Shown piece after piece: positions 33,047 through 52,922 of a DNA stretch of 54,148 nucleotides (positions within the stretch are counted from its first letter, which is position 1; the number at the start of each line of letters is the position of its first letter). The notes beneath the pieces are model-generated. The model did no database searches. It was not told the origin of the DNA and worked only from the letters and a program-made list of their open reading frames with translations. Both the position numbers and the translations under genes were made by a program. The stretch comes from Dehalococcoidia bacterium (GTDB lineage: Bacteria; Chloroflexota; Dehalococcoidia; Lucifugimonadales; UBA3495), in contig JAJDTP010000003.1 in assembly GCA_022827095.1 (NCBI GenBank), positions 1 through 54,148 of the forward strand, given 5' to 3'.

Positions 33047-33075
33047 TTGAGCGTCTTGCCGCTTAATGGTAGGAT
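33047..33075 (+). promoter_or_regulatory. Promoter of second DUF1800-DUF1501-NHL module
   Basis: -35 TTGAGC (33047-33052), 17-nt spacer, extended -10 TGGTAGGAT (33067-33075). The leader of about 36 nt carries GAGGAGG (33103-33109) before ATG 33118. The design matches the first module's promoter in strength and spacing, but the sequence is different. Confidence 0.55.
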
Positions 33076-33117
33076 ACCGATGGCGATTTGTTGATTCAGA
33101 TCGAGGAGGTTTTATCA

Positions 33118-34527: not shown

Positions 34528-34544
34528 CCCCAACCGCCCCCTGG

Positions 34545-34564
34545 ATTCCGGCTTTCGCCGGAAT
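34545..34564 (+). repeat. REP-like hairpin ATTCCGGC-TTTC-GCCGGAAT
   Basis: Perfect 8-bp inverted repeat followed by GACGGG, inside the gap between DUF1800 and DUF1501 of module 2. It is the same family as 429-448. In a transcript it could act as an RNA stabiliser or attenuator between the two genes. Confidence 0.65.
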
Positions 34565-34612
34565 GACGGGATAAGGCAAGACCACGCAAACCATCCCACG
34601 GGAGGAGAAATC

Positions 34613-35749
34613 GTGACCGCTACGAAGAAAGATCCGGTCCTGGTAGTTCTACAGATGTCGGGCGCCTTTGACGCTCTGAACACCATCATTCCCTACAACG
34701 ACCCGTTGTACAAGGACTACCGGCCCCACCTGAAGGTGGAGGTTGAGGAAGTCCTGGCCGTCGATGACAAGGTTGGGTTCCACCCGGCCATGGCCCCCAT
34801 CAAGGACATGTACGACGACGGAAAGGTCGCCGTCATCCAGGGCATCGGCTATCCCAATCCCATCCGCTCCCACTTCCGCTCCATGGACATCTGGCACACG
34901 GCCGAGCCGGCCAAGATGTCCACCGAAGGTTGGCTGGGCCGCGCCATCCAGGACCTCGATCCCAACAAGGAAAACGTCCTGACCGCCGTCAACTTTGGCC
35001 GCGGCCTTCCGCGGGCCCTGGCCGCGCCTGGCGTGTCCGTTGCTTCTGTCGGCAACCTCGAGACTTACGGCGTACTCACCGGTATCGACGGTGAGGAGCA
35101 GCGTTCGGAGGCCCTGGACATCTTCTCCCGCATGTACTCGCCGATGGTCGGCTCTGGCCCCATCAACGAATACCTGTCGCAGACCGGCCTGGACGCCCTC
35201 AAGGGCGCAGATATCCTGCGTACCGCTCCGGAGATCTACTCCTCCAGCGTCGAGTACGGCGGGGACATGTTCTCCCAGTGGGTCAAGAACGTGGCCCAGG
35301 TACACACGGCCGGCTTCGGTACGCGCGTCCTGTACACCGGCCTTAACCCCGGCGCCTTCGACACCCACGCCAACCAGCCCACGTCCTTCGCCAAGCTGTG
35401 GGGTGAGGTCTCGCGTGCGGTCAACGACCTGTACCAGGACCTGAAAGAGCACAACGCCAACGAAGAAGTTGTCATGCTGCTCTTCACCGAGTTCGGCCGC
35501 CGCGTGCAGGAGAACGGCTCTGGCACCGACCACGGTTCCGGCAGCGTGGCGTTCGTCATCGGCGACGGCGTCAAGGGCGGCCTCTACGGCGAGTACCCGT
35601 CCCTGGAGCCGGACAAGCTCGATGAGGGCGACCTGAAGTGGAACAACGACTTCCGGAGCACCTACGCTACCATCCTGGACAAGTGGCTTGATCTGGATGA
35701 CCAGGAGATCCTGAAAGGCTCCTACGAGCAGTTCGACTTCATCAAGTAG
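34613..35749 (+). CDS. DUF1501 family protein (module copy 2)
   Basis: 378 aa from GTG 34613 with GGAGGAG upstream. It is paralogous to 21951: KKDPVLVVLQMSGAFDALNTIIPYNDPLY, SHFRSMDIWHTAEPAKMSTEGWLGRA, GAFDTHANQ and FTEFGRRVQENGSGTDHGSGS. The GGND motif of copy 1 is GAFD here, keeping Asp but losing the Asn, a difference in the putative metal/active-site loop. DTH and TDHG are kept. No export signal is visible. NHL copy 2 follows 128 nt later, after a hairpin. Confidence 0.92.
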   Translation: MTATKKDPVLVVLQMSGAFDALNTIIPYNDPLYKDYRPHLKVEVEEVLAVDDKVGFHPAMAPIKDMYDDGKVAVIQGIGYPNPIRSHFRSMDIWHTAEPAKMSTEGWLGRAIQDLDPNKENVLTAVNFGRGLPRALAAPGVSVASVGNLETYGVLTGIDGEEQRSEALDIFSRMYSPMVGSGPINEYLSQTGLDALKGADILRTAPEIYSSSVEYGGDMFSQWVKNVAQVHTAGFGTRVLYTGLNPGAFDTHANQPTSFAKLWGEVSRAVNDLYQDLKEHNANEEVVMLLFTEFGRRVQENGSGTDHGSGSVAFVIGDGVKGGLYGEYPSLEPDKLDEGDLKWNNDFRSTYATILDKWLDLDDQEILKGSYEQFDFIK

Positions 35750-35795
35750 CCAACTGCAACCCCTGTCCGTTGTACCGGCAGGAACGGACGCGAAG

Positions 35796-35822
35796 TAGGG
35801 GCAGGTTACCAACCTGCCCCTA
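35796..35822. repeat. 12-bp stem hairpin between DUF1501 and NHL (copy 2)
   Basis: TAGGGGCAGGTT (35796-35807), ACC, AACCTGCCCCTA (35811-35822) is a perfect inverted repeat without a T-tract. It may be an intergenic repeat or an attenuating/stabilising RNA hairpin rather than a full terminator. Confidence 0.6.
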
Positions 35823-35877
35823 CGCTACGATTGCCGGACGGTCGGAATTCTACGGCGTGAAATTTGGAAGGTGAAAT

Positions 35878-36921
35878 ATGGTTACTGCGACTGAGATCGC
35901 GCCGGTAACGTTTCAATACAGTCATACCATTGGCCGGCAGGAAGTGCGCAGCGGCAACGGGTTCTTCAATCCGGTCGCCATCACGCGCGACGATAGCGGG
36001 ATGCTGTACGTGCTGAGCCGCGGCACCGAGACCCCGGCATTCTTCCCGTGCAAGCGCGTCACCGTCTTCCACCCGGACGAGGAAGAAGTGGTCGCCGAAT
36101 TCGGACAGAAGATCCCGCCCGAAGACGCAGACGAAACCACCCCCAACGGTTCGTTCATGTGGCCGACCTCGGTGGCGCTGGACAGCAAGGGTTATGCCTA
36201 CGTCTCCGACGAATGGTTGAACCGGATCTCAATCTACGACCAGGAGCGCGGCAACTGGATCGGGATGTGGGGCATCCCGGGTTCCGGCGACGGCGAGATC
36301 GACCGGCCGGCCGGCTTGGTTTTCGACAAGGACGACAACCTGTATGTCGTGGAAAGCCGCAACCACCGGGTTTCGGTGTTCACCAAGGAAGGCCAGTTCA
36401 AGTTCAGTTGGGGCCGCAAGGGGTCCGGCGACGGCGAGTTCGATCACCCCTGGGGCATCGAGATTGACCAGGACGGCGATGTCTACGTTGCAGACTGGCG
36501 CAATGACCGCATCCAGAAGTTTGCTCCCGACGGTGCCTTCCTGATGAAGTTCGGCGCCTCCGGCGACGGCGAGGGCGAGTTCAGCCGGCCCACCGGCGTG
36601 GCAGTCGACAAGGACGGGCACATCTTCGTCACCGACTATAGGAACGACCGCGTCCAGGTGTTCCGGGCCAACGGCAGCTACATCACATCCATGCATGGGC
36701 AGGCCGGCCTGTCCAAGTGGGGCGCGGAGCGCGTGTACCTTGACCCGACCATCGTACGGGCTCGCGAGCGCGCGTTGGGCCTGGCCGAGAGGGAAGGTGC
36801 TTTCCAGGGTCCCATTGCCATCGAGGTGAGCGACGACGGCCGAGTGTTCGTGCTGGAGGCCCCCCGGCATCGGGTGCAGGTCTTCAGCAAGCAAACGGCC
36901 ATGTTTGCCGGCGAGCTCTGA
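35878..36921 (+). CDS. NHL-repeat beta-propeller protein (module copy 2)
   Basis: 347 aa from ATG 35878 with GGAAGGTG upstream. NHL blades are regular: GSFMWPTSVALDSKGYAYVSDEWLNRISIYDQERG, GEIDRPAGLVFDKDDNLYVVESRNHRVSVFTKEG, GEFDHPWGIEIDQDGDVYVADWRNDRIQKFAPDG, GEFSRPTGVAVDKDGHIFVTDYRNDRVQVFRANG. Residues 1-45 (TFQYSHTIGRQEVRSGNGFFNPVAI) align with the start of copy 1 (YSHSVGRGAASGMGFSQPTSM). There is no signal peptide. Ligand-binding and protein-scaffold functions are both possible. It ends the second module and is followed by a strong terminator. Confidence 0.92.
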   Translation: MVTATEIAPVTFQYSHTIGRQEVRSGNGFFNPVAITRDDSGMLYVLSRGTETPAFFPCKRVTVFHPDEEEVVAEFGQKIPPEDADETTPNGSFMWPTSVALDSKGYAYVSDEWLNRISIYDQERGNWIGMWGIPGSGDGEIDRPAGLVFDKDDNLYVVESRNHRVSVFTKEGQFKFSWGRKGSGDGEFDHPWGIEIDQDGDVYVADWRNDRIQKFAPDGAFLMKFGASGDGEGEFSRPTGVAVDKDGHIFVTDYRNDRVQVFRANGSYITSMHGQAGLSKWGAERVYLDPTIVRARERALGLAEREGAFQGPIAIEVSDDGRVFVLEAPRHRVQVFSKQTAMFAGEL

Positions 36922-37752: not shown

Positions 37753-38517
37753 CTATGCACTGCCGAGGAACACCTGTGTCAAAATATCTGTTTCCCTGAT
37801 TGAGTCTGGCGTTCCGTTGTGGACCACCTCTCCCTTGTCCAGCACATAGGCGCGATCTACGATGTCCAGCACGCCCTTGATATTGTGCTCCACTACCATG
37901 ATGGTGGTGTCGAGCCGCTCGCTGATCTCCGCGACCTTTTCGAATACCTCTTTGACGATGATCGGCGCCAGGCCAAGGGTCGGTTCGTCCAACAGCAGCA
38001 ACTCCGGTGAGGCCATCAGCCCGCGACCGAGGGCCAGCATCTGCTGCTGACCGCCGGACATGGCGCTAGCCATGTCCTTGCGTTTTTCATAGAGCACCGG
38101 GAAGAGTTCCATCACTGAATCGAGGCGGTTGGCCTTCTCCGACCGGTCGTTCAGGTAGATGCAGCCCATCTCGAGGTTTTCGGTGATAGTCAGGTGGGTG
38201 AACACGCGCCGGCCCTGGGGCACGAAGGCGATACCTTCCTTGACGATCTCATGGGTAGCCGCGGCCAGGAGATGCTGCCGCCAGTAAACCTGGCCGGCAA
38301 CCACCGGCGCCAGGCCCATGACAGCCTTGAGCACGGTGGACTTGCCGGCCCCGTTGGGGCCCATCACCGCGACCACCTCGCCCTTTTGCACGGACATGGA
38401 TATCTCGTGCAACGCGCGAACTGCACCGTATTCGACGGAGATGCCTACCAGTTCCAGCAGCGGGGCATCACCGCTGCCGTCGGCCTGACCCGCGGTTTGC
38501 ACCGACGCTAACGCCAT
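37753..38517 (-). CDS. livF: LIV-type ABC transporter ATP-binding protein LivF
   Basis: 254 aa from ATG 38517, which overlaps the livG stop by one base (TGATG). Walker A GPNGAGKST, Q-loop PQGRRVF, signature AMSGGQQQML and Walker B LLLLDEPTLGLAP with switch His in VVEHN are all present. PQGRRVFTHLTITENLEMG and LDKGEVVHNG identify the LivF subgroup. It powers import of a branched-chain-amino-acid-like substrate with LivG, LivM and LivH. It is the last gene of the operon. Confidence 0.95.
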   Translation of the reverse strand: MALASVQTAGQADGSGDAPLLELVGISVEYGAVRALHEISMSVQKGEVVAVMGPNGAGKSTVLKAVMGLAPVVAGQVYWRQHLLAAATHEIVKEGIAFVPQGRRVFTHLTITENLEMGCIYLNDRSEKANRLDSVMELFPVLYEKRKDMASAMSGGQQQMLALGRGLMASPELLLLDEPTLGLAPIIVKEVFEKVAEISERLDTTIMVVEHNIKGVLDIVDRAYVLDKGEVVHNGTPDSIRETDILTQVFLGSA

Positions 38518-39266
38518 CACGCCCCCAGATATGCCTCGATTACCTCTGCGCTGCCCAACACCGGCTCGACGTCACCGGCCGCCAGCAACGTTCCGCTGTC
38601 CAGCACAATGATCCGGTCGGACAGTTCCCGTACGATGTCCATGTTGTGGGACACGAAAACGATGGTGTAGCCATCGGCCCGCATCTGCTTCATGATGTCC
38701 TTGACCCGCTCCAGCATTTGCGGGAAAAGACCGGCGAAAGGCTCGTCAAAGAGGTAGGTCTGGACGTCCATGGCCATGGCGCGGCCGATTTCCAGCAACT
38801 TGCGCTGTCCGTAAGACAGTTCCATGGCCAGCGAATCGCGCTTTTCCCACATGCCCACGGACTCCAGGATCTCCTGAGCTTTGCGGCGGTTGGCCGGGCG
38901 GATGCGTTCGAATAGCGACGAAAACAGCCGCCGGTCGGTCAGCACCACCATGATGTTGTCCCAGACGGTTATCTGGTCGAACAGCCGGACTTCCTGGAAG
39001 GTGCGAGTCAAGCCGTGGTCCGGCGTTTCATGGGCGTGCACGACCCTCAGGCCGACGCCGTCGATGATCACCATTCCGCCGTCCAGGGGGAGAACCCCGC
39101 TCAACAGGTTCACCAGTGTCGACTTGCCGGACCCGTTGGGCCCCACGATGCTGGTGGTTCCTTGGCGAGGGATGGACAGGCTGAGCTCGTCCACCGCGCG
39201 GACGGCCCCGAAGTGTTTGGATATGCCCTCGGTTTGCAGGGCCAGGGCTTCGTCATTCCCGGTCAC
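38517..39266 (-). CDS. livG: LIV-type ABC transporter ATP-binding protein LivG
   Basis: 249 aa from GTG 39266, overlapping the end of livM by four bases (GTGA). Walker A GPNGSGKST, RTFQEVRLFDQITVWDNIMV (the LivG-type Q-loop), signature LSYGQRKLLEIGRA (Tyr in place of the second Gly-adjacent Ser/Gly), Walker B TYLFDEPFAGLFP and switch His in FVSHNMD. The helical ABC subdomain contains FERIRPANRRKAQEILE. It is the second nucleotide-binding subunit of the transporter. Confidence 0.95.
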   Translation of the reverse strand: MTGNDEALALQTEGISKHFGAVRAVDELSLSIPRQGTTSIVGPNGSGKSTLVNLLSGVLPLDGGMVIIDGVGLRVVHAHETPDHGLTRTFQEVRLFDQITVWDNIMVVLTDRRLFSSLFERIRPANRRKAQEILESVGMWEKRDSLAMELSYGQRKLLEIGRAMAMDVQTYLFDEPFAGLFPQMLERVKDIMKQMRADGYTIVFVSHNMDIVRELSDRIIVLDSGTLLAAGDVEPVLGSAEVIEAYLGA

Positions 39267-40318
39267 AGCCGATACCTCCCTACCAGTCCCTGCGGGCGGA
39301 ACAGCATCAAAAGCACTAGCAGTATACCCAGGATCACCTGGCGCGCCTGTCCGATGTACTCGGTGGGCAGGTATGGGATGAACCGCATACCCTCCTCCAG
39401 CAGCACGAAAGCCATCGCGCCCAGCAGAGAACCCCAAATGGTGGCCAAGCCGCCCAGGATGACGATGGACACCAGCAGCACCGACTCGAGGAGGATGAAA
39501 GAGTTGGGGTCGATGAAGGACGTCCAACTAGCGAAGAGGCCGCCGGCCAGGCTGGTCATCATGGCCGAAATAACCCAGACCGCCAGCTTGAAGTGCGTGG
39601 CCCGGTAACCGAACACTTCGATGGCCTGCTCGTCCTCGCGGATTGCGGTGAGAACTCTGCCGAAGGACGATGTAGTGATGAACCATGAAATTAGCATCAC
39701 CAGGGCCAGGAACGCCAGACCCAGCAGCAAGAACTCGACCTCGCCGTCGAAGACCCAATTGCCAATCTGCGGCCGGGCGATCTCGTGGATCCCGAAGGCC
39801 CCGCGTGTGACGCTGCGCAGGTTGAGGAACACGTTGAAGGCGATGATGGCGAACCCAAAAGAAACCAGCACGAATATGTCGTCGCGGAACCGGTTGAACA
39901 CCACGCCAACCAATAGCGCGGCCAACCCGGCCAATCCGATGCATACGGGTAGTGCTGCGAAGAACGTCCAGCCAAAGGTGGGGATCGCCTCCGTCCGCAG
40001 TTGCTCATAGGCCGGGTCGGAGGTCAGGATCGCCATGGTGTAGGCCCCCAACCCGAAGAAGCCGATATGCCCGACGGACAGCAGGCCGGTGAAACCAACC
40101 ACCAGGTTCAGGCTCACCGCCAGGATCGCCCAGATGGCGAAAACGGTCAGCACGATCACGGCGAACCCGGCGCCCTGCCACAGCATGAAAGCGATGGCCC
40201 AGCCAATCACGAACAGATTGGCCCAAAGCTCGATGTTCCCCCGGGCGTGGCGGGCCAGCTCTGCCGGGTTCTGCGCCAGGCGGGCAAACGTCCTGATGCC
40301 GTCGAGGTTTACCGGCAC
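39263..40318 (-). CDS. livM: LIV-type ABC transporter permease LivM
   Basis: 351 aa from GTG 40318. The SD GAGGAG lies in the last codons of the livH-like gene, and the intergenic gap is only 4 nt. The hallmark LivM block LAVSLNLVVGFTGLLSVGHIGFFGLGAYTMAIL is present near residue 70. A conserved cytoplasmic loop TSSFGRVLTAIREDEQAIEVFGYRATHFKLAVWVISA precedes the last helices. There are 8-10 hydrophobic spans. Inner-membrane permease subunit. Confidence 0.94.
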   Translation of the reverse strand: MPVNLDGIRTFARLAQNPAELARHARGNIELWANLFVIGWAIAFMLWQGAGFAVIVLTVFAIWAILAVSLNLVVGFTGLLSVGHIGFFGLGAYTMAILTSDPAYEQLRTEAIPTFGWTFFAALPVCIGLAGLAALLVGVVFNRFRDDIFVLVSFGFAIIAFNVFLNLRSVTRGAFGIHEIARPQIGNWVFDGEVEFLLLGLAFLALVMLISWFITTSSFGRVLTAIREDEQAIEVFGYRATHFKLAVWVISAMMTSLAGGLFASWTSFIDPNSFILLESVLLVSIVILGGLATIWGSLLGAMAFVLLEEGMRFIPYLPTEYIGQARQVILGILLVLLMLFRPQGLVGRYRL

Positions 40319-40322: not shown

Positions 40323-41705
40323 TTATCTCCTCGGCAGCAGGCCCTTCGGCCAGAATGACAGGAACAGAATGAGAAGGACGAACGCTATGGCGTCTTTCCA
40401 CTCGCCGGCCAGGTCCCAGATCCCGAATTGCTCCACCAATCCCAGCACAAATCCGCCCAGGATGGCTCCGTACAGGTTGCCGATCCCACCGACTACCGAG
40501 GCGATCCAGCCTTTCAGGAGCAGCAGCAGACCCATGCGCGGTTGCAGCGCGGTGTCGTGTCCGGTCAATATTCCAGCCATGGCGGCATACATTGCCCCGA
40601 CGAAAAACACCACGGCAATGATCACAGTGGTGTTGATGCCAACCACCTTGGAAACTTCCTCGTCGTCGCCGATGGCCCTTACGGCGCGTCCGAACGAGGT
40701 CAGCTTCAGCAGATACCACATGCCAACGAAACCGGCCAGGGCCACGCCGATGGCGAACACATTGAAGCCCTTGATGCGCGCTCCAGCGATATTCCACGGA
40801 GTGCTGCCGAAGGCATCCGGGAGCGCACGGGGCGCGCTCTGGAAAACGATCACGATCAGCGCGGCGATTGCCAGCAAGATGCCCAGCGATGCCACCAGCA
40901 TGATCAGGGGTGAACGAGCACGCTCCCGCATGTACACGTAGAGCCCGCGATACAGCGCGAGGGCCACGCAACCCGCCAGCAGGCAAGAAACTCCCCAGCT
41001 GAGATAGAGGCCCGCGCCGGGGGCCCCGGTCAGCAGGTATCCGCACCATGCGCCCAAAAGCGCAGCGGGCACGGCTGCGGCCAGTGCGATCCGGGTCGGG
41101 CTGATCGTTGGCACCAACGCGGCGGCAAATCGCTGGACGGCCGCAATAATCACGCCCGCAGTTGCCAACCCCACAGCGAGGCTCAGCGTCAGGTGGATGT
41201 GCGCCGGCAAGGCCAGCACGATGCCGGTGTAAGCGCCTAACGCGACCGCGAGCAGAATAACGCCGGCACGAAGAACCTCCGGGCTCGTCCGACCACGCAA
41301 GCGCGGCTCCAGCACCGTGTGCAGGGTCCACGCTGCCACACCGGAAACCACCGCGCCAAAGAACACGTTGACATAGATACTGTTGGGGTCCAGGCGACTG
41401 CCCAGCGATGGGTCCGTGCGCAGGTAAAAGACGCCGTATGCTCCTAGAGCGGCGGCCGCCCCGTAGTACAGATCGAAGAACCATACCGTGCTGTAGACCA
41501 GCGTGAACCCCAACGCCAGCAGGGCGTACACCGCGCCCACGGCCAAACCGTTGAACGCGAATTGCAATGCCTGAGGCGGGGCTTGCCCGATTTTCCAGGC
41601 GATGTACCCCAGAGCAAGCGCCGTCAAAAGCGCGGCAAGCAGCCGAGTGCCGGGCACATTTATCAACCGAGGCAGCCCGCGGGCGTTCTCACGATTTCCA
41701 GCCAA
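40323..41705 (-). CDS. livH: LivH-type permease with extra membrane region
   Basis: 460 aa from TTG 41705, with GAGGA upstream. ALQFAFNGLAVGAVYALLALGFTLVYSTVWFFDLYYGAAAALGAYGVFY (47-94) and SPLIMLVASLGILLAIAAL through RAVRAIGDDEEVSKVVGINT and KGWIASVVGGIGNLYGAILGG are the standard LivH segments. LivH proteins are usually around 290-310 aa. Here residues about 100-255 include several additional hydrophobic spans (for example VLRAGVILLAVALGAYTGIVLAL and RIALAAAVPAALLGAWCGYLL), so the protein has roughly 110-150 extra residues. The extra region keeps the frame and ends cleanly before YRGLYVYMRERARS, so it is not a sequencing artefact. Confidence 0.92.
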   Translation of the reverse strand: MAGNRENARGLPRLINVPGTRLLAALLTALALGYIAWKIGQAPPQALQFAFNGLAVGAVYALLALGFTLVYSTVWFFDLYYGAAAALGAYGVFYLRTDPSLGSRLDPNSIYVNVFFGAVVSGVAAWTLHTVLEPRLRGRTSPEVLRAGVILLAVALGAYTGIVLALPAHIHLTLSLAVGLATAGVIIAAVQRFAAALVPTISPTRIALAAAVPAALLGAWCGYLLTGAPGAGLYLSWGVSCLLAGCVALALYRGLYVYMRERARSPLIMLVASLGILLAIAALIVIVFQSAPRALPDAFGSTPWNIAGARIKGFNVFAIGVALAGFVGMWYLLKLTSFGRAVRAIGDDEEVSKVVGINTTVIIAVVFFVGAMYAAMAGILTGHDTALQPRMGLLLLLKGWIASVVGGIGNLYGAILGGFVLGLVEQFGIWDLAGEWKDAIAFVLLILFLSFWPKGLLPRR

Positions 41706-41826: not shown

Positions 41827-44109
41827 TTAGGGCGTGGGAGCGGGTCCCAGCGAAACGTATCCCAGGTTGTCTTCGTTGCGCTCAGCCAGCGGGAGAATTT
41901 GAACAACCACGTTGCCCGGCCCGACCACTTCGCCGTCGGAGTCGAACGTGTAGTTTGCCCCGATGGCTCCGCTGAAGGTCAACCCGTACAGACAATCCCT
42001 GAAGCCGTCAGCGTCCTGGTCGTCGTTGGTCTGCTTCAGGCACTCTGCGGCAAGATACACATCGTCGTATGCGGAAGCCTGGAACCAGGGTTGGGTCGCG
42101 GGGCTGCCATAATGAGCATCAAAGTCCTTGAGGAACTGCTCGCCCCGCTCCGTGAGGCCCAACGGGATGATGGCCTTCATGCCGGTGGCGGCCTCTCCAG
42201 CGATGCTCAACGCCTCAGGCCCGGTGTTCACGGCCTCGGTGTAGATGGGGCCTTCGTAACCCAGCTCCCGTGCCTGTTTGATGATAGTGCCGCCCGAGAA
42301 TTCGCCTTGCGATGCCAGGTGAATGGCGTCGGGTTCCGACGCAATCAGTTTGGTGAGTTGCGTGCGAAAGTCAGTCACGTCCGAAGTATAGCTCTCGGCG
42401 GCGACGACGTGGCCACCCAGTTCCTCAAAGCGGGCGACAGTGGTGCGGCGCGCGCCTTCAGCGTAGTCCGTGGCTTCGGTGATGGTTGCCAGATGGTGGT
42501 GGCCGTCGGCATGGAGAGCGTTTCCGGTGTCGACTCCCAGCTGGTTATCGTCAATGGCGGTACGGAATATGTAATCGCCGGCCGGCTTGATGTCAGGGCT
42601 AGTGGCGGATGCGGACAGCATGATGACGCCATCAGCCTCGGCCAGAGGGGCCGCTCCCAGCATCGCGCCAGAGCAGGTAGTGCCGAGAATGATCTTGACA
42701 CCGTCAACGTCGGTCAGCTTGTTGTACGCCGTGATGGCGTCCTGCGCCGCGCACTTGGAGTCTTCGGGGATAATCTCCAGCATTCGCCCGTTGATGCCAC
42801 CAGCCGCGTTGATTTCTTCCACGGCGAGGAGCTTGGCGTTCAGGATCGGGTTACCGTAGGACTCGCCCACGCCGGTCAGGGCATCCATCGCGCCAATGCG
42901 GAATGGATCCTGCGACATGACAGGAGCGGCCGCAGCGGCATCTGCGCCCGGAGCGGAGCCAAGGATGCGATAGCCGTTGTTGTCGGCAGTGCGCTCAGAT
43001 TCCGGCAGTACTTCGACCACCGCGTTGGCCAGGCCGACAACCTCGCCGTCGGAGTCGAAGCTGTAGTTTTCGCCGATGGCGCCGCTCCAGGTAATCCCGT
43101 ACATGCAGTCGCGGAACCCGTCGGCGTCCTGGTCATCGCCGGTCATTTTCAGGCACTCGGCGGTGATGTAAACGTCGTCGTAGCCGGATGCCAAGTACCA
43201 GGGCAATGTCACATAGTCGTAGCGAGCCCTGAAGTTGGTCAGGACCTCCTGGCTCTTGGCGTTGGCCGGATCCAGTTCGGCAATGACGGCCTTCAAGCCG
43301 GTCGCCGATTCGCCGGCAACTTCGAGGGCAGTAGCGCCCACCGGAACGATCTCCGAGTACAGGGGGCCCTCGTAACCCAGTTCGCGGATCTGCTTCACCA
43401 CCGTGCCGCCGGAGAATTCCGATTGGGCGGCAATGTGCACCGCATCGGGATTGGAGTTCAAAATCTTGGTCAACTGGCTGCGGAAGTCGGTCACGTCGGA
43501 AGCATAGCGCTCCTCGGCGACGATCTCGCCTCCCAAAGAAACGAACTGCTCCGCGGTGGTGCGGCGCACGCCCTCGGCGTAGTCGGTGGTTTCCGTGATG
43601 GTCGCCAGGCGTTGCGCGCCGTCGGCGCGGATCACGTTGCCGGTGTCGATGCCCAGCTGCAGGTCGTTCATCGACGTGCGGAAGATGTAGTCGCCGGCGT
43701 GGGCAATGTCAGGGTTGGTTGCCAATCCGGAGAACAGGATCACGCCGTCCGCTTCGGCGAGGGGCGCCGCGCCCAGCATGGCGCCGCTGCACGACGTGCC
43801 GAGGATGATCTTCACGCCATCCACGTCGGTGAGCTTGTTGTACGCGGTGATCGCGTCCTGGGCGCTGCACTTCGAGTCCTGCACGATGAGCTCGATCATG
43901 CGCCCGTCGATGCCGCCGGCAGCGTTGATCTCGTCGACCGCCAGCTGCTTGGCCTGACTGGAGACCGTTCCGTAAGTCTCGCCGGGGCCTGTGAGCGATT
44001 CCATCACTCCTATCTTGAACGACTCGTCGCTCGCATCGTCCCCGCAGGCGACGGCCAGGAGTCCCAAGACTGCCAGAACGCACACCAACGCAATCTGTCG
44101 AATGGACAT
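41827..44109 (-). CDS. Tandem double LIV-type substrate-binding lipoprotein
   Basis: 760 aa from ATG 44109 with AAAGGAGG upstream. The signal ends in a lipobox (LLAVAC22-GDD). Residues 31-385 and 403-760 are two complete type I periplasmic binding domains, each starting F(K/R)IGxM(E/D)xLTGxGExYG and each with INAAGGI(D/N)GR and EFSGGT, joined by an Ala-rich linker (386-400). A single domain of about 380 aa is normal. Each copy has matched Cys pairs (C81/C107 and C319/C335 in copy 1) and a DQDADGFRDC stretch. It heads the operon. The ligand may be an amino acid, urea-like compound or small amide. Confidence 0.93.
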   Translation of the reverse strand: MSIRQIALVCVLAVLGLLAVACGDDASDESFKIGVMESLTGPGETYGTVSSQAKQLAVDEINAAGGIDGRMIELIVQDSKCSAQDAITAYNKLTDVDGVKIILGTSCSGAMLGAAPLAEADGVILFSGLATNPDIAHAGDYIFRTSMNDLQLGIDTGNVIRADGAQRLATITETTDYAEGVRRTTAEQFVSLGGEIVAEERYASDVTDFRSQLTKILNSNPDAVHIAAQSEFSGGTVVKQIRELGYEGPLYSEIVPVGATALEVAGESATGLKAVIAELDPANAKSQEVLTNFRARYDYVTLPWYLASGYDDVYITAECLKMTGDDQDADGFRDCMYGITWSGAIGENYSFDSDGEVVGLANAVVEVLPESERTADNNGYRILGSAPGADAAAAAPVMSQDPFRIGAMDALTGVGESYGNPILNAKLLAVEEINAAGGINGRMLEIIPEDSKCAAQDAITAYNKLTDVDGVKIILGTTCSGAMLGAAPLAEADGVIMLSASATSPDIKPAGDYIFRTAIDDNQLGVDTGNALHADGHHHLATITEATDYAEGARRTTVARFEELGGHVVAAESYTSDVTDFRTQLTKLIASEPDAIHLASQGEFSGGTIIKQARELGYEGPIYTEAVNTGPEALSIAGEAATGMKAIIPLGLTERGEQFLKDFDAHYGSPATQPWFQASAYDDVYLAAECLKQTNDDQDADGFRDCLYGLTFSGAIGANYTFDSDGEVVGPGNVVVQILPLAERNEDNLGYVSLGPAPTP

Positions 44110-44148
44110 CACCCCTCCTTTCGGAGCCGGCCAATCTGCCGTGCGGGC

Positions 44149-44221
44149 AGTATCCCCCACGCGAATCTCAAGCCGCAAGGGTATTCGGGGAAGCCGTGAA
44201 CCTGTTGAGATTGAATCTCAA
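44149..44221 (-). promoter_or_regulatory. Promoter and candidate operator of the LIV operon
   Basis: On the minus strand -35 TTGCGG (44178-44173), 18-nt spacer, -10 GATACT (44154-44149). A perfect 17-nt palindrome TTGAGATTGAATCTCAA lies upstream at 44205-44221. A further half-site GAATCTCAA (44163-44171) falls in the promoter spacer. The arrangement suggests a dimeric regulator binding two sites about 50 bp apart. Promoter strength is only moderate. Confidence 0.45.
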
Positions 44222-44578: not shown

Positions 44579-44606
44579 GATCAAGCACGCAAAGGAGATG
44601 CACATC

Positions 44607-45266
44607 ATGGCGCTACGCATCAACGACACGGCCCCCGACTTCACCGCTGACACCAGCAGCGGCACCGTCAACTTCCACGACTGGATCGGCGACGGTTGGG
44701 CGGTCCTCTTCTCCCACCCCAAGGACTTCACTCCCGTCTGCGCAACCGAACTCGGCTACGTCGCCAGCCTGAACGATGAGTTCGGCAAGCGCAACTGCAA
44801 GGTCATCGGCCTCAGTGTCGACAAGGTCGAGGACCACCAGCGCTGGGCAGCCGACATCGAAGAGATCGGCGGCACCGCCCTCAACTTCCCCATCATCGCC
44901 GACGACCAGCTGAACATCGCCAAGCTGTACGACATGCTCCCCGCCGAGGAGGAGCCCGGAGAGGGCCGCACTGCGGCAACGAACCAGACCGTGCGCACCG
45001 TCTTCCTCGTCGGCCCGGACAAGAAGATCAAGATGAACCTCACCTACCCCATGAGCACGGGGCGCAATTTCGATGAGTTGCTGCGTGTCCTGGACTCCTG
45101 CCAGCTCACCGCCGGCCACAAGGTGGCGACCCCCGCGAACTGGAACAAGGGCGAGGACGTCATCATCCTGCCCGCGGTCGACAACGAGGCCGCCAAGGAG
45201 CTCTTCCCGGACGGTTGGGAGACAGTGAAGCCTTACCTCCGCAAGGTCAAGGACCCCAGCGCGTAA
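44607..45266 (+). CDS. 1-Cys peroxiredoxin (Prx6 group)
   Basis: 219 aa from ATG 44607, 9 nt after AAAGGAG. The ATG at 44598 touches that SD. SHPKDFTPVCATELGYV contains the peroxidatic Cys45 with the conserved Thr and Pro, and Arg in NQTVRTVFLVGPDKKIK completes the site. The length and C-terminal NWNKGEDVIILPAVDNEAAKELFPDGWETVKPYLR extension are those of Prx6-type enzymes. It reduces H2O2 and organic hydroperoxides in the cytoplasm. It is placed directly after tRNA-Asn without room for a separate promoter and ends at a bidirectional terminator. Confidence 0.95.
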   Translation: MALRINDTAPDFTADTSSGTVNFHDWIGDGWAVLFSHPKDFTPVCATELGYVASLNDEFGKRNCKVIGLSVDKVEDHQRWAADIEEIGGTALNFPIIADDQLNIAKLYDMLPAEEEPGEGRTAATNQTVRTVFLVGPDKKIKMNLTYPMSTGRNFDELLRVLDSCQLTAGHKVATPANWNKGEDVIILPAVDNEAAKELFPDGWETVKPYLRKVKDPSA

Positions 45267-45304
45267 GCGCAGTAGGCTGCGCACTGCCCGGAATGACAGA
45301 GTAA

Positions 45305-45333
45305 AAGCCCCCGCGCACATTGCGCGGGGGCTT
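45305..45333. terminator. Bidirectional rho-independent terminator
   Basis: AAGCCCCCGCGCA (45305-45317), CAT, TGCGCGGGGGCTT (45321-45333). The AAAA before it makes a T-tract for the minus-strand tRNA-Asp transcript, and TTCATTT follows on the plus side for the peroxiredoxin transcript. Confidence 0.88.
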
Positions 45334-45350
45334 CATTTCGCTGCCGCTGC

Positions 45351-45429
45351 TGGCGACCCGGACCGGATTTGAACCGGCGATCTCCGCCTTGACAGGGCGG
45401 TGTGTTAAACCAGGCTACACCACCGGGCC
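45351..45429 (-). tRNA. tRNA-Asp (GTC)
   Basis: Minus-strand cloverleaf with acceptor GGCCCGG/CCGGGTC (one G:U), anticodon arm CCGCC-CTGTCAA-GGCGG giving GTC, T arm GCCGGTTCAAATCCGGT, discriminator G and encoded CCA (45351-45353). It lies 40 nt downstream of the glutaredoxin gene on the same strand. Confidence 0.94.
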
Positions 45430-45469
45430 GCGGTAGCTTGCCCCGGCTACACCGGGGCGGTCAGAACGC

Positions 45470-45694
45470 TCAGCCGATCCCATGATACCCCACGATGACG
45501 AGTTCTCCCTCGACCATCACGGGGGTCACGCGCTCACCGCCGGTCAGCCGCTCCAACTCCCCTACGAACTCGGGGTGCTCCTCGAGATCGATCTGCCGGT
45601 ACTCCACTCCATCTTTTCTGAGGTCGTGCAGCAGGGCATCCGAGTAGGTACAGTCGGGGCGCGTATAGACGATGAGCTCAGCCTGGCTGACCAT
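45470..45694 (-). CDS. Glutaredoxin-like protein with CxxS motif
   Basis: 74 aa from ATG 45694. LIVYTRPDCTYSDALLHDLRKDGVEYRQIDLEEHPEFVGELERLTGGERVTPVMVEGELVIVGYHG is a complete short glutaredoxin. The active site is C15-T-Y-S18, so the resolving Cys is Ser. VTPVM supplies the cis-Pro loop. Monothiol action on glutathione-like thiols or Fe-S assembly is possible. An extended -10 TGGTATGAT (45712-45704) would start transcription only about 3 nt before the ATG. A small hairpin (45441-45457) and tRNA-Asp follow, and the two are probably co-transcribed. Confidence 0.8.
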   Translation of the reverse strand: MVSQAELIVYTRPDCTYSDALLHDLRKDGVEYRQIDLEEHPEFVGELERLTGGERVTPVMVEGELVIVGYHGIG

Positions 45695-45766
45695 TGCCTC
45701 CGAATCATACCAGCGCGTGGCCTGATAGGCTAGGGAGCCATTCACTCACCCGTGCGGAGCCGGAAC

Positions 45767-46744
45767 ATGCCCACGATGCGAGCCGCCATCCTCAGAGGAC
45801 TGCGGGACATCGTCTGCGACGAAGTGCCCATGCCGGAATCGGATGGACAGAAAGCGCTCGTGCGGATGCACATGGCCTCCATCTGCGGCACGGACCTGCA
45901 CTACGTCTACCACGGCTGGCCGCGCAACCAATATCCGATGGAGCCCGGTGAACCGGGGCATGAAGGGGTAGGCACTATCGTCGACCCGGGCGAGACCGGT
46001 TTGCGGGAGGGAGCGCTTGTCCTCACCGTTCCGAACATCTGGGAGGCGCGCAACTTCGCCGAATACCAGGCTGTCTCGCCCCATTTCATCATCGAACTGC
46101 CGGAGGGGCGCCCCCTTGCCGAATTGATGATGGCCCAGCAGTTGGGCACCGTCATCTTCGCGGCGCGCAAACTGCCTGAGATGACGGGCAAAACCGCCGT
46201 GGTCATCGGGCAGGGGAGCGCAGGCCTCTTCCACGACTTCTACCTGCGCCGCCTCGGCGCCGAGCGGATCATCACCATCGAACCGAACGACGACCGGCGT
46301 GCGGCAGGGGTCGCGCTCGGCGCGGACGACGCGCTCGACGTGACCGGCGATGCAGCGGTGGAAGCCGTGCTGCAATTAACGGACGGGCAGGGGGCCGAGG
46401 TGATCGTTGACGCGGTCGGCGGTCACGAGACGCTCGACCAGGCGGTGCGGATGGCGAAAGCGGAGGGCCACGTGCACGTGTTCGGCCTGCCGACGGGGTT
46501 CGACCCTGTGCCGTTCGACCTGGGCACTTACTTCCTCAAACGGCTCGACGTACGCACCATATTCGGCGCTCAGGACGAGCCGGGCCTCGTGTCGTTCCGG
46601 CAGGCCCTCCGGCTCATAGCCGAGGGGGAGATCGATATGTCTCCCTACGTAACGCACACCATGCCTCTGGAACGAGTGGGCGATGCCTTCGAACTGGCGC
46701 ACGAACCCAGCGGCGGCGCGCTCAAGGTTTCCCTTACGATGTAG
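45767..46744 (+). CDS. Zinc-type alcohol dehydrogenase (MDR superfamily)
   Basis: 325 aa from ATG 45767 with GGAG 7 nt upstream (ATG 45776 is an alternative). SICGTDLHYVYHG gives the catalytic zinc Cys, and GEPGHEGVGTIV the His/Glu pair. The four-Cys structural zinc lobe of classical ADHs is missing. The Rossmann loop is VIGQGSAGLFHDFYLRRLGAERIITIEPNDDR, where Glu after the strand suggests NAD(H). It probably oxidises a polyol, alcohol or threonine-like substrate. It stands divergent from the glutaredoxin gene. Confidence 0.9.
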   Translation: MPTMRAAILRGLRDIVCDEVPMPESDGQKALVRMHMASICGTDLHYVYHGWPRNQYPMEPGEPGHEGVGTIVDPGETGLREGALVLTVPNIWEARNFAEYQAVSPHFIIELPEGRPLAELMMAQQLGTVIFAARKLPEMTGKTAVVIGQGSAGLFHDFYLRRLGAERIITIEPNDDRRAAGVALGADDALDVTGDAAVEAVLQLTDGQGAEVIVDAVGGHETLDQAVRMAKAEGHVHVFGLPTGFDPVPFDLGTYFLKRLDVRTIFGAQDEPGLVSFRQALRLIAEGEIDMSPYVTHTMPLERVGDAFELAHEPSGGALKVSLTM

Positions 46745-46795
46745 CGGGGTTGCGCATTCCCTGCGAAGCAAGAATCGGGTATGATTGCTGAACGC

Positions 46796-46823
46796 TTGAC
46801 ACGCAGCGGCAAACCCTTATAGC
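46796..46823 (+). promoter_or_regulatory. Promoter of the three-gene secreted-protein cluster
   Basis: -35 TTGACA (46796-46801), 16-nt spacer, -10 TATAGC (46818-46823). The predicted leader is about 60 nt with AAGGAGG (46878-46884) before GTG 46891. Confidence 0.55.
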
Positions 46824-46890
46824 CTCTGCGCCGCACTCGCGGCACGCACGAGTTGTCTGGCCGTGAGCATCGGGTTGAAGGAGGAAAGCC

Positions 46891-47403
46891 GTGACTCGAA
46901 CGCATTCACTACTGTCGCCGCGGTTCGCATTGGTTACATTGGCCGCTGCCGCTCTGGTGGGGCTCGCCCTCGCGGCGGCGCTTTCCACGAATGAAGGCGC
47001 GCGCGCGGACGGTCACGCCACCGGAGGAGAGACGCTTGTCGTAACGCCGAACGAAGCAGACTTCGTTCCGGGGACGCGCAGCTCTCGCACTGCGGTGTGG
47101 ATCTACGGGTCCGGCTTCAACCCCGGTCAGAGCCTCCTCGTCCTGATCGCTGACCAGCGTGGCGTTGCCACGGACGTCGGTGCTCTCTCGGGCGTCGACG
47201 TGGTCGCCAACGACGACGGCGCCTTCGGGTTCGAGTGGACATTCGGCCGCTTTACCCGGACAGGCGTCGGCGGCGAGGGCATGCAGTCGGTCCGTGCAGT
47301 GGACGCAGGCTCGTTCGACGAGTTGGCGACCGCTCCGCTTGCCCTCTGCAACCTCAGCGGCCGTGCCGAGGATGCGGAAGTCCCGAGCCACTGCTCGGCG
47401 TAA
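46891..47403 (+). CDS. Secreted beta-sandwich protein, ADGH family member 1
   Basis: 170 aa from GTG 46891. A basic N-terminus, a hydrophobic span (FALVTLAAAALVGLALAAALS) and the signal-peptidase-like site ARA-DGH (cleavage after residue 39) predict export, giving a mature chain that starts Asp-Gly-His. VWIYGSGFNPGQSLLVLIA and NDDGAFGFEWTFGRFTRTG form an Ig/IPT-like beta-sandwich. The end carries two cysteines (LCNLSGRAEDAEVPSHCSA) that may form a disulfide. It is the first of three tandem paralogues (47441 and 48041). Function unknown. I do not recognise a named family. Confidence 0.75.
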   Translation: MTRTHSLLSPRFALVTLAAAALVGLALAAALSTNEGARADGHATGGETLVVTPNEADFVPGTRSSRTAVWIYGSGFNPGQSLLVLIADQRGVATDVGALSGVDVVANDDGAFGFEWTFGRFTRTGVGGEGMQSVRAVDAGSFDELATAPLALCNLSGRAEDAEVPSHCSA

Positions 47404-47440
47404 CCCTACCTTTTGAAGATTCGTTGAGCAGGAGGACTCA

Positions 47441-48016
47441 GTGACAGCTGCTACCACAGTAACGAAACGGTCAGCGACCATCTGGATCGCTGCCGGTCTC
47501 ATCGCCGGTCTTGCGCTCGCTATCGCGCTCTCTGCGTATCAGGGCGTGCGCGCGGACGGGCATGTGACGGGGACCGAAGCCATCGTGCTCGACAAGACCG
47601 AGGTCACTTTCGTACCGGGCACGAGCCGCTCAGGCGAGGAAGTCTGGATCCGCGGTTCCGGATTCACGCCGGGCAATGAGATCGAGCTCATGGTGGCGGA
47701 CTACCAGGGCGCGCTCTACATCATCAGCGCCTGTCGCTGGAACGACGAAGGTGAGTGCGACCCCGGTCGCTACCGCGACGGCGCGGGCAGCGTGTGGCCG
47801 CTCATCGTGAACGACGATGGTGCGTTCGCGACCAAGTGGCGCCTCGGACGCTTCACCCGCGCGAACGTTGGTGCAGAGCGTCTGGCGACTATGTGGGCCG
47901 TGGAAAAGGCCAGCGGCACTTTCCTGGCCAGCGCGCCGATCGCGCTCTGCAACCTGACACGGAATGACGATCCTGAAGCGGAACCCGTAGAAGTCCCCAA
48001 CTTCTGCTCGGCGTAA
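47441..48016 (+). CDS. Secreted beta-sandwich protein, ADGH family member 2
   Basis: 191 aa from GTG 47441 with AGGAGG upstream, 37 nt after member 1. Signal span TIWIAAGLIAGLALAIALSAY, then VRA-DGH with predicted cleavage after residue 38. VWIRGSGFTPGNEIELMVADY and NDDGAFATKWRLGRFTRAN match member 1. A 25-residue insertion rich in charged and Cys residues (ACRWNDEGECDPGRYRDG) lies between these blocks. The C-terminus LCNLTRNDDPEAEPVEVPNFCSA keeps the terminal Cys pair. Likely extracytoplasmic, with unknown ligand. Confidence 0.75.
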   Translation: MTAATTVTKRSATIWIAAGLIAGLALAIALSAYQGVRADGHVTGTEAIVLDKTEVTFVPGTSRSGEEVWIRGSGFTPGNEIELMVADYQGALYIISACRWNDEGECDPGRYRDGAGSVWPLIVNDDGAFATKWRLGRFTRANVGAERLATMWAVEKASGTFLASAPIALCNLTRNDDPEAEPVEVPNFCSA

Positions 48017-48040
48017 GCGTAAGGTCCACAGGAGGTAATC

Positions 48041-48781
48041 GTGACTAAGGTAATCGCAACTCACCCCCGGGCCGTGGTTCTCACGCTTATCGCCGCGGGG
48101 CTGCTGCTCGGCCTTGTGGCGGGCAATGCCGTCCTCTCCCCGAGGGCGTCCGCCGACGGACACGTCTCCGGCGTCGAGAGCGTCGTCACGGGAGACGTGG
48201 TCGTCAACCACCAGTTGGGGGCGCGCTCGTCCCGCGAGCAGGTCCGTATCTGGGGCGCGGGCTTCGCTGCCGGACAGGAGGTCATCCTCCTTATCAACGA
48301 CGGTCCCGGCACTCCTTCAGACATCACGAACTACGTGAGCAACAAGAGTGCCAACAACACCCTCGTTGCCAACGACCAGGGCGCATGGACAACAGTCTGG
48401 ACGCTCGGCCGCTTCACCCGCCAGCGCTCCGGCATCGGCCCCGGCGACGGCGACGTGGAGCGCGTGCGTACCCTCAGCGTCATCGACCCCGGTACGTTTG
48501 ACGTCATCACCAGCACACCGTTGGCCTTCTGCCGCAAGAGCGACCGCGTCGCCATCGCGGAGAACCTCGCCGAGTTGGAGTCCGACCTGGCGCTCGTCCA
48601 GGCTGACAGGGACGAAGGCCTCGGCGAGAAGCCCGTCAACGTCTCCGATGCGGCCTGGGCCCTCGCGACCGCGTTCTACCCCTCCTACGAGGCAACACTC
48701 GACGCCAAGATCGTCGAACTGACGGCGGACATAGAGGCTGAGAAGGCCAAGCAGGGCGTTCCTGACCACTGTCCCTCGTAG
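48041..48781 (+). CDS. Secreted beta-sandwich protein, ADGH family member 3
   Basis: 246 aa from GTG 48041 with AGGAGG (48029-48034), 24 nt after member 2. Signal span VVLTLIAAGLLLGLVAGNAVL, then ASA-DGH, an ideal AxA signal-peptidase site. VRIWGAGFAAGQEVILLIND and NDQGAWTTVWTLGRFTRQ correspond to the other members. The last 80 residues (after FCRKSDR) are unique: a predicted helical hairpin (IAENLAELESDLALVQADRD... LDAKIVELTADIEAEKAKQ) sits between the two conserved cysteines before VPDHCPS. It could mediate assembly or spacing at the cell surface. Confidence 0.75.
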   Translation: MTKVIATHPRAVVLTLIAAGLLLGLVAGNAVLSPRASADGHVSGVESVVTGDVVVNHQLGARSSREQVRIWGAGFAAGQEVILLINDGPGTPSDITNYVSNKSANNTLVANDQGAWTTVWTLGRFTRQRSGIGPGDGDVERVRTLSVIDPGTFDVITSTPLAFCRKSDRVAIAENLAELESDLALVQADRDEGLGEKPVNVSDAAWALATAFYPSYEATLDAKIVELTADIEAEKAKQGVPDHCPS

Positions 48782-48808
48782 GGCCAAGAGGCATAGGCGA
48801 AACCTGGA

Positions 48809-48833
48809 AGCCCTCCGGAGAACCCGGAGGGCT
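48809..48833 (+). terminator. Rho-independent terminator of the secreted cluster
   Basis: AGCCCTCCGG (48809-48818) pairs with CCGGAGGGCT (48824-48833), followed by TCTGCTTT. Confidence 0.8.
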
Positions 48834-48851
48834 TCTGCTTTGCACCGCCAT

Positions 48852-48860
48852 TGCTAGAAT
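48852..48860 (+). promoter_or_regulatory. Extended -10 of the glutaryl-CoA dehydrogenase gene
   Basis: TGCTAGAAT at 48852-48860, predicted start about 48867, 25 nt before ATG 48892. It lies just after the terminator of the previous cluster. Confidence 0.45.
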
Positions 48861-48891
48861 GGCCTTCCACCACCCGTACTGTGAGGCCCTG

Positions 48892-50058
48892 ATGCAACCC
48901 TACCGCGGCATAGACCTGCTGGATATCGAATCGCAGTTGACCGACGACGAGCGGCAGGTGCGCGACACTGTTCGCGACTTCGTCGAGGCGGAGGCGATGC
49001 CTGCCGTCGTTCCCCACTTCCGGGAGGGTACATTTCCACTGGAACTCGTCCCGCGCCTGGGGGAACTGGGCCTCTTCGGCGCCCACCTGGAGGGTTACGG
49101 CTGTGCCGGGCTCGGCCCCGTGGCCTACGGCCTCGTCATGCAGGAGCTGGAGCGCGCCGACTCCGGCTACCGCTCATTCGCGTCTGTCCAGTCCTCCCTG
49201 GCGATGACCGCCATCCATGAGTTCGGCACCGAGGAACATCGCGAGCGCTACCTGCCGGACATGGCTGCAGGCCGCGTCCTCGGCGCATTCGGGCTCACCG
49301 AAGCAGACCACGGCTCCGATCCGGCCGGGATGGAGACGCACGCTGTCGAAACCGCGGACGGCTTCACGCTCAACGGCGGCAAGATGTGGATCACGAATGC
49401 CGGCATCGCCGACGTCGTGGTGGTCTGGGCGAAGCTGGGCGACGCGATACGAGGCTTCCTGGTGGACACGACCCTGCCGGGCGTACGACGGGAGGACATC
49501 CACAACAAGCTCTCGATGCGGATGAGCGTAACCAGCGCATTTTTCCTGGAAGACGTGCGCGTGGGAGAAGATGCGTTGCTCCCCGGCACGCGTGGCCTCG
49601 GCTCGGCGCTGGCCTGCCTCAACGCGGCGCGATACAGCATCGTCTGGGGCGTCTGCGGGGCGGCTGCCGACTGCCTGCACACCGCCATCGAATACACAAA
49701 GGAGCGGGAGCAGTTCGGACGCCCGCTTGCGTCCTTCCAGCTCGTGCAGCAGAAGCTTGCGGACATGGCCACATCGCTCTCGAAGGCGCAGCTGCTCGCG
49801 TTGCAGTTGGGACGGCTGAAGGCCGCGGGAACGCTGCACTGGTCGCACGTCAGCATGGCGAAGTACAGCAACACCCTCGCGGCGCTGGAGATCGCGCGCA
49901 CCAGCCGCGACCTGCTCGGCGCGGCCGGCATCACCGACGATCTCTCCCCGATGCGCCACGCGATGAACCTGGAGACAGTGCACACCTACGAGGGCACGCA
50001 GCACATGCACCAGCTCATCCTGGGGCGTCACCTGACCGGCATCAACGCTATCTCCTGA
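48892..50058 (+). CDS. gcdH: Glutaryl-CoA dehydrogenase-like acyl-CoA dehydrogenase
   Basis: 388 aa from ATG 48892 with GAGG nearby. The in-frame ATG at 48859 overlaps the -10. LERADSGYRSFASVQSSLAMTAIHEFG, FGLTEADHGSDPAGMETHAV, GGKMWITNAGIADVVVVWAKL and LSMRMSVTSAFFLEDV follow the glutaryl-CoA dehydrogenase pattern closely. The catalytic Glu367 is in TYEGTQHMHQLILGRHLTG. The enzyme would oxidise and decarboxylate glutaryl-CoA to crotonyl-CoA (lysine, tryptophan or aromatic ring degradation) with FAD and an electron-transfer flavoprotein. No ETF genes are in the window. Confidence 0.9.
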   Translation: MQPYRGIDLLDIESQLTDDERQVRDTVRDFVEAEAMPAVVPHFREGTFPLELVPRLGELGLFGAHLEGYGCAGLGPVAYGLVMQELERADSGYRSFASVQSSLAMTAIHEFGTEEHRERYLPDMAAGRVLGAFGLTEADHGSDPAGMETHAVETADGFTLNGGKMWITNAGIADVVVVWAKLGDAIRGFLVDTTLPGVRREDIHNKLSMRMSVTSAFFLEDVRVGEDALLPGTRGLGSALACLNAARYSIVWGVCGAAADCLHTAIEYTKEREQFGRPLASFQLVQQKLADMATSLSKAQLLALQLGRLKAAGTLHWSHVSMAKYSNTLAALEIARTSRDLLGAAGITDDLSPMRHAMNLETVHTYEGTQHMHQLILGRHLTGINAIS

Positions 50059-50124
50059 CTGGCGGCAGGCAGGTTTGCCTCATGCGCTCCCCAGGCGGAT
50101 AATCGACCTGCAGGAGGATGGCTG

Positions 50125-51090
50125 ATGAAAGCGGTGCGGTTCCACGAATTCGGCGGGCCGGAAGTGCTCCGCCTTGAAGATGTCCCCGACCCCGAACCCG
50201 GCGACGGCGACGTGCTGGTCCGGCTCGCGGCCTCCGGCGTCAACCCTACGGATGCCTCGCGGCGCGCCGGACGCATGGGGCAGGACATCGGCTTTCCCGC
50301 CATGCTCGGCGTGGAGGGCGCGGGCGTCGTTGCGGGGACCGGCAGGGACGTGACGTCGGTGAGCGAGGGCGACCGGGTCATCGTACGTCAGCACTTGCAC
50401 ACGTATGCTGAACTGATCGCCGTTCCCGAGCACGCCGTGTTTCCAGCGCCGGGCAACCTCAGCCTCGTTGAAGCCTCGACGCTTGCCATCATCTACACGA
50501 CCGCGTGGGCGGCGCTGTGTGTCCGCGGCGGTGCGAAGGAGGGCGACACCGTCCTCGTGCAGGCCGCGGCGAGCGGCTGCGGCATCGCCGCCATCCAGCT
50601 GGCGAAGCAGCTGGGGATGACTGTGCTCGGCACTGCGAGCAGCGCCGAGAAGCTCGAATGGGCGGCCCAGTACGGGCTGGACCACGGCATCAACTACGTC
50701 GAGCAGGACTTCGTCGAGGAGTCCAAACGGCTCACGGACGGCCGCGGCGTGGACGTCATAGTCGACGGTATAGGCGGCGACATCCTGGCCAGGGGCCTCG
50801 GAGCACTGGCGCGCGGCGGGCGGGCAGCCGTGTTCGGGGCTGCGGGCGGCCGGGAGACGACGTTGCCGATCGCCAGCCTTTACCGCGGTCCGGTCTCGAT
50901 AACCGGCGCCGGCGCGGCGCTCACGCCGCGGGAGGACTTCGAGACGATCCTCGGCTGGTTCGCCGAGGGCAAGCTCAGGCCGACCATGGACCGCACGTGG
51001 CCGCTCGCCGAGGCCGTCGAGGCCCACCGCTACCAGGAGTCGCGCCAGATCAAGGGCAAGAGCGCACTCATCATCAGCGAAGACGACTGA
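50125..51090 (+). CDS. NADPH:quinone oxidoreductase (zeta-crystallin-like MDR)
   Basis: 321 aa, ATG with GGAGG upstream and a GATAAT -10-like string at 50098-50103. MKAVRFHEFGGPEVLRLEDVPDPEPG and ASGVNPTDASRRAG are the QOR-family N-terminus. VLVQAAASGCGIAAIQLAKQLGMTVLGTASS is the AxxGxxG-type cofactor loop. There are no zinc ligands. Reduction of quinones or alpha,beta-unsaturated carbonyls with NADPH is expected. It is followed by a dienelactone hydrolase gene 21 nt away, suggesting an operon. Confidence 0.9.
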   Translation: MKAVRFHEFGGPEVLRLEDVPDPEPGDGDVLVRLAASGVNPTDASRRAGRMGQDIGFPAMLGVEGAGVVAGTGRDVTSVSEGDRVIVRQHLHTYAELIAVPEHAVFPAPGNLSLVEASTLAIIYTTAWAALCVRGGAKEGDTVLVQAAASGCGIAAIQLAKQLGMTVLGTASSAEKLEWAAQYGLDHGINYVEQDFVEESKRLTDGRGVDVIVDGIGGDILARGLGALARGGRAAVFGAAGGRETTLPIASLYRGPVSITGAGAALTPREDFETILGWFAEGKLRPTMDRTWPLAEAVEAHRYQESRQIKGKSALIISEDD

Positions 51091-51111
51091 CCCGCACGAA
51101 GGAGGAAGGCG

Positions 51112-52409: not shown

Positions 52410-52413
52410 CCGG

Positions 52414-52866: not shown

Positions 52867-52870
52867 GCCG

Positions 52871-52896
52871 GGATTATAGGAGCGCGGCTATAATCC
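52871..52896. promoter_or_regulatory. Symmetric divergent -10 pair
   Basis: GGATTATAG (52871-52879) and CTATAATCC (52888-52896) are exact inverted repeats. The left arm is a TATAAT for the minus-strand GNAT gene (start on the ATG). The right arm is a TATAAT for the plus-strand MetE-like gene (leader about 22 nt). The two RNA polymerase sites are too close to be used at once. Confidence 0.5.
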
Positions 52897-52922
52897 GGTT
52901 CACCTTTCCCCGGAGCACTCCC

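Follow-up and report, generated by a model that had tools for sequence, protein, structure and literature searches.

The gene at positions 41,827–44,109 of the window, the whole stretch of 54,148 nucleotides analysed here (Dehalococcoidia bacterium, assembly GCA_022827095.1, contig JAJDTP010000003.1), encodes a substrate-binding lipoprotein with two complete LIV-type domains in one chain, an architecture that is true, old, and uncommon. With moderate confidence, we interpret it as two joined paralogues forming a tethered two-module binding protein that would offer two related ligands to a single LIV permease. The features of the gene are as follows.

41,827–44,109, minus strand: two-domain LIV-type substrate-binding lipoprotein gene, 760 amino acids (single open reading frame; PF13458 found twice; fused in related genomes).
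44,044–44,109, minus strand: signal peptide and lipobox (Cys22) of the contig copy, probably non-native (sequence; f19-like side of the junction described below).
42,946–44,031, minus strand: domain 1 (type N), residues 27–388 (PF13458; alignment to domain 2).
42,904–42,954, minus strand: Ala-rich linker, about residues 386–402 (sequence; same place in orthologues; own-genus side of the junction).
41,830–42,918, minus strand: domain 2 (type C), residues 398–760 (PF13458; good structure model, LIV-type fold).

The 760-codon frame runs on the minus strand from an ATG at 44,109 to a stop at 41,827–41,829 without interruption. PF13458 matched the whole protein twice (E 7.5e-107, 358 bits; cut-off 31.7), and its genomic matches to the gene scored 191 and 179 bits, both above the curated cut-off of 31.7, which places the protein among the LIV-type (HAAT) substrate-binding proteins defined by a Peripla_BP_6 domain above cut-off. 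Among the NCBIfam models of named LIV and urea binding proteins, none was matched above its cut-off. Export and lipid anchoring are predicted, from sequence only, by a signal peptide and lipobox present in the window copy and in relatives; the lipobox of the window gene (LLAVA-C22) is single, with no second one in the chain. The two PF13458 matches and the single lipobox at Cys22 bear out the original prediction of two full LIV-type domains behind one lipobox, and the stop and start between the domains, which it named as refuting, are absent, the linker of about 17 residues (386–402) being open throughout. Aligned over 359 codons, the halves are 66% identical in amino acids and 68% in nucleotides, with 48% identity at third codon positions and high synonymous divergence (dS about 1.3), in agreement with the old, retained event that was predicted. 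Elsewhere in the same genome, contig C14 carries a frame of 797 amino acids with only one PF13458 match.

The 5' part of the window copy has to be set apart from the rest, as the contig changes its affiliation inside domain 1, at about 43,783–43,792 (approximately 43,790, codon ~106), a junction that the original prediction missed.

43,783–43,831, no strand assigned: own-genus sequence gives way to family f19 sequence within a conserved domain 1 block (site-by-site comparison with L039 and L098; sliding identity; flank searches).

Positions 1–20,000 and 20,000–36,000 match the genus of the window (main matches at 80–90%, mostly in the same order as in G011 and G001), and the search of 1–36,000 against genus g42 of family f19 gave no match but two short ones of 70–71% in G064. 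Positions 44,600–54,148 match g42 (91% in G062, 89% in G061, and 88% in the longest piece of G060), are collinear in G062 and G061, and do not exceed 67% in any of the five own-genus genomes compared. On the 5' side of the switch, 43,801–44,200 is 84–99% identical to the single-domain genes L098/L088, and the sequence on its 3' side, to about 42,700, shares 84–95% identity with the G013 fused gene. In the same metagenome-assembled genome (MAG), contig C23 shows the reverse arrangement: it carries the own-genus upstream flank and the 5' part of the binding-protein gene (90–93% to G013) to about position 430, beyond which it is 83–98% identical to L106, from another lineage, until the contig end; in its region 1–1200 (L052, G000:C23), an own-genus 5' half of the gene gives way to the L106-like sequence at the block where the window also switches. 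When the G011 protein served as query, the match to C23 began at residue 2, but that to the window did not begin until residue 63. The window copy lacks the Pro/Ala/Thr/Gln-rich tether that in relatives separates domain 1 from the lipid anchor.

The DNA 5' of ~43,790 is that of a different bacterial family, so that the window copy probably owes its first ~106 codons, with the signal peptide and short tether, to an assembly chimera; the organism's own signal peptide and 5' half appear to be located on C23. Biological inference from the first 106 codons of the window copy is unsafe unless the reads are checked. It is unlikely that the switch instead reflects real recombination or transfer: the 20 exact bases that the window and C23 share at the switch are few for a reciprocal swap in an assembly graph, and identity of 97–99% to an f19 gene over ~200 bases of the 5' part is what a recent exchange could give; however, all of 44,600–54,148 follows f19 (88–91%) and not the own genus, C23 holds the own-genus 5' half and turns to a third lineage at the same block, and a search of the MAG for an f19-type permease operon found only the own-genus operon. 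That the assembly simply exchanged ends between the window and C23 is also unproven, given the 20 shared bases and the continuation of C23 into a third lineage. The junction serves as a practical warning that near-identical binding-protein families can let metagenome contigs of different organisms join. The segment 43,790–54,148, which matches f19 and not the own genus, encodes two tRNAs and peroxiredoxin-like, dehydrogenase-like, and acyl-CoA dehydrogenase-like genes. It also contains, at 46,891–48,781, three consecutive secreted-looking open reading frames with similar N-terminal halves (SGxE...PGxRSSRxxVWIxGxGFxPG), two of which were searched against Pfam and gave no match.

The original prediction proposed a search for the same fusion in related genomes, and we found it in 11 of 13 sampled relatives of the genus: G001, G002, G004, G006, G007, G009, G010, G011, G012, G013 (two copies), and, counted with them, G008, in which the two halves stop at contig ends. 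No close match was found in the other two sampled members, G003 and G005. The linker of the compared orthologues lies in the same place and is of similar make-up. Because the same architecture recurs in many separate assemblies, including those of G011 and G007, which are single-contig genomes, the fusion is real. The probable misjoin nearby at ~43,790 and the unfused adjacent pairs of other genomes could suggest that assembly error joined two neighbouring genes, but this is extremely improbable, as the linker falls within own-genus sequence and many separate assemblies contain this fusion, two of them single-contig. The first 106 codons, which are probably chimeric, have no bearing on the two-domain explanation.

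The fused gene lies upstream of livH-livM-livG-livF on the same strand, and is encoded together with LivH, LivM, LivG, and LivF type subunits:

40,323–41,705, minus strand: livH-type permease, 460 amino acids (BPD_transp_2 and LivH/UrtB models; conserved beside the binding-protein gene).
39,263–40,318, minus strand: livM-type permease, 351 amino acids (model matches; conserved neighbour).
38,517–39,254, minus strand: livG-type ATPase, start approximate (model matches; conserved neighbour).
37,753–38,520, minus strand: livF-type ATPase (model matches; conserved neighbour).

The liv operon is found downstream of the fused gene in all these genus relatives except at the second G013 copy, where it was not found within the stretch examined. 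The livH-type permease is ~150 residues longer than Escherichia coli LivH (model length 308), and livH matches in related single-domain operons are likewise long.

The fusion is rare among the genomes sampled: it occurs in the window's genus and in a single genus belonging to a second family. Of 250 genomes screened across the order, 52 had close relatives; fused genes were seen in the window's genus (g1, family f1) and in genus g22 (family f6; G196/L107, G198/L113, and G197/L171, where L107 and L113 were assigned to G196 and G198 by matching frame lengths), which agrees with the earlier view that two domains per chain are unusual. When a profile of the fused protein was compared with 400 phylum and 393 class genomes (partly overlapping samples, with the two best candidates per genome scored), the only near full-length match was in the window's own genome, and single-domain matches were many. 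Those relatives that have names are MAGs of Dehalococcoidia, the SAR202 cluster, and other Chloroflexota. Many loci contain two unfused adjacent genes of the binding-protein family, and such pairs plausibly represent the precursor state of the fusion. Other extended forms were also observed: L172 (2485–6753) has an open frame of 1423 amino acids in which a LIV-type binding domain comes after leucine-rich repeats, and L103 (4519–7077) and L108 (5017–7086) have a single LIV-type domain after a long N-terminal lipoprotein region (about 490 and 330 amino acids, respectively) with no Pfam match.

In maximum-likelihood trees, type N and type C domains form separate supported groups. The type C clade also contains single-domain genes from different genera and families (G015, G109, G246, G248, and G249), and type N domains are placed among other single-domain genes. 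A simple intragenic duplication within the genus is unsupported, because both types cluster with single-domain genes elsewhere, and the fusion of two old paralogues would be the simplest account of the N+C protein. The original prediction of an old, retained duplication thus holds for the age but not for the origin, which the trees describe better as the joining of two separate paralogues. The fused gene of G009 has two N-like domains and that of G007 two C-like domains; the members of each pair group together, so that later replacement or separate duplication has taken place. The g22 fused genes have other domain pairings.

The trees of the two domains disagree in detail, the window standing beside G013, G001, and G011 in the N tree and beside G006, G008, G010, and G012 in the C tree, with G004 placed in the opposite way; this could be due to recombination or assembly error. 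In domain 2, below about 42,700, identity to G013 drops from 91–94% to 59–81%, and identity to G006 and G010 stays at 68–88%. The drop may reflect conversion in G013, since the C domains of its two copies, L039 and L047, are closely related; the N domains of these copies differ, through conversion or a chimera. It has also been considered that LIV domains are exchangeable modules and that the fused pairs (N+C, N+N, C+C, and the g22 pairs) were reassorted by recombination at the conserved CSGAMLG block. The discordant trees fit this, but chimeras in metagenome assemblies would give the same pattern, and we regard it as rather doubtful. If true, one permease could change its substrate menu.

The pocket was compared with the sequence and contact residues of LivK, with which both domains share most anchor positions. 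In the fused genes of the genus, both N and C types keep Tyr18, Cys53, Cys78, Ser79, Thr102, Asp121, and Tyr150 (LivK numbering). The comparison of contact residues suggested in the original prediction, run against LivK, found 79, 102, 121, and 150 retained; by the presumed contact list, Tyr202 is replaced by Gln and Glu226 has no aligned acid. Over 11 sequences of each type, the N and C types differ consistently at positions 99 (G/A), 100 (L/S), 229 (V/T), 276 (Y/F), and 277 (L/Q), and almost consistently at 103 (N/S). Of about 10 presumed contact positions, 2 differ, whereas the complete domain has 36 positions at which the difference is fixed or nearly so. Of the options raised in the original prediction (two ligands, higher avidity, or cooperative binding of one ligand), the pocket comparison leans toward related, non-identical ligands. 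As LivK Tyr202 and Glu226 are not conserved, an amino acid is the putative ligand class. A DDQDADG motif of the calcium-loop type lies between two invariant cysteines in domain 2 (residues 299–309, domain numbering) and at the same place in domain 1; it is family-wide and unusual next to LivK.

Both domains are under purifying selection, with dN/dS of 0.03–0.11 (N) and 0.05–0.18 (C) over six genome pairs, C being higher in five. The predicted structure of domain 2 is of high quality (pLDDT 92.8) and resembles solved LIV-type proteins (Z 42–44), the structural matches including leucine, alanine, valine, and isoleucine complexes. A full-length prediction based on 12 sequences was poor (pLDDT 67) and was set aside. 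The faster evolution of domain 2 in five of the six pairs could mean that one domain alone feeds the permease, the other being a sensor, a structural spacer, or losing function; this is quite improbable, however, as purifying selection on domain 2 is clear, all the listed anchor positions are kept, and its fold model is intact.

In the mechanism we propose, two older paralogous binding proteins would have been joined in frame, yielding two clamshell domains on one lipid anchor that holds both near one LivHM channel. Each domain would close independently on its own amino-acid-like ligand, and the domains might dock by turns on the same channel, which would let a single importer handle two related substrates. 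The single chain, the two intact domains, the common operon with livHMGF, conservation in the genus, separate ancestry of the domain types, and purifying selection on both are established by the data, and the two-ligand function is an educated guess. The lack of conservation at LivK Tyr202 and Glu226 and the same-type pairs in G009 (N+N), G007 (C+C), and L113, which two ligands do not require, weigh against it. These pairs in G009, G007, and genus g22, together with the identical anchor positions, are what would be expected if both domains bound the same ligand and the extra copy gave more sites per anchor, with faster capture and delivery. We give this possibility less credence, since the pocket-side differences at 99, 100, 229, 276, and 277 are fixed over the 11 sequences of each type and N and C have been separate since before the genus.

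Among known proteins, LivJ and LivK (HAAT, Peripla_BP_6) share the domain family and the livHMGF operon, and the closest solved relatives by sequence are Streptococcus LivJ (4gnr) and E. coli LivK/LivJ (1usg, 1z15); in contrast to these, the window protein has two domains per chain, carries Gln at position 202, and has no acidic residue aligned with position 226. UrtA and AmiC have the same superfamily fold (AmiC 1pea, Z 38), but AmiC is structurally further from domain 2 than the LIV proteins, and the match to the UrtA profile is weak (TIGR03407, 91.5 bits against a cut-off of 492.75). Within the literature covered, a search for tandem HAAT/LIV domains returned nothing relevant, which is weak evidence of their absence. 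The bacteria carrying the fusion are uncultured and mostly sponge-derived, and sponge SAR202 genomes have been described as those of amino-acid-use specialists (PMC6306507).

Tandem binding domains are already known from permease-fused importers such as GlnPQ, in which the two domains have different specificities and each binds on its own, with no cooperativity; lengthening the linker slows transport but leaves binding unchanged (PMC8025302). The window protein resembles GlnPQ in having two related tandem binding domains, a short linker (about 17 residues, 14 in GlnPQ), and one importer (PMC8025302), and by analogy it probably works like this tandem. It stands outside the GlnPQ family, because it consists of LIV-family domains unattached to a transmembrane subunit: in GlnPQ they are joined to the permease (PMC8025302), whereas here they form a separate lipoprotein, with LivH and LivM encoded by separate genes. 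Two-LIV-domain lipoproteins, with same-type and mixed-type pairs in two lineages of sponge-type SAR202/Dehalococcoidia, constitute a natural experiment on receptor doubling, in which a wider menu can be set against more receptors.
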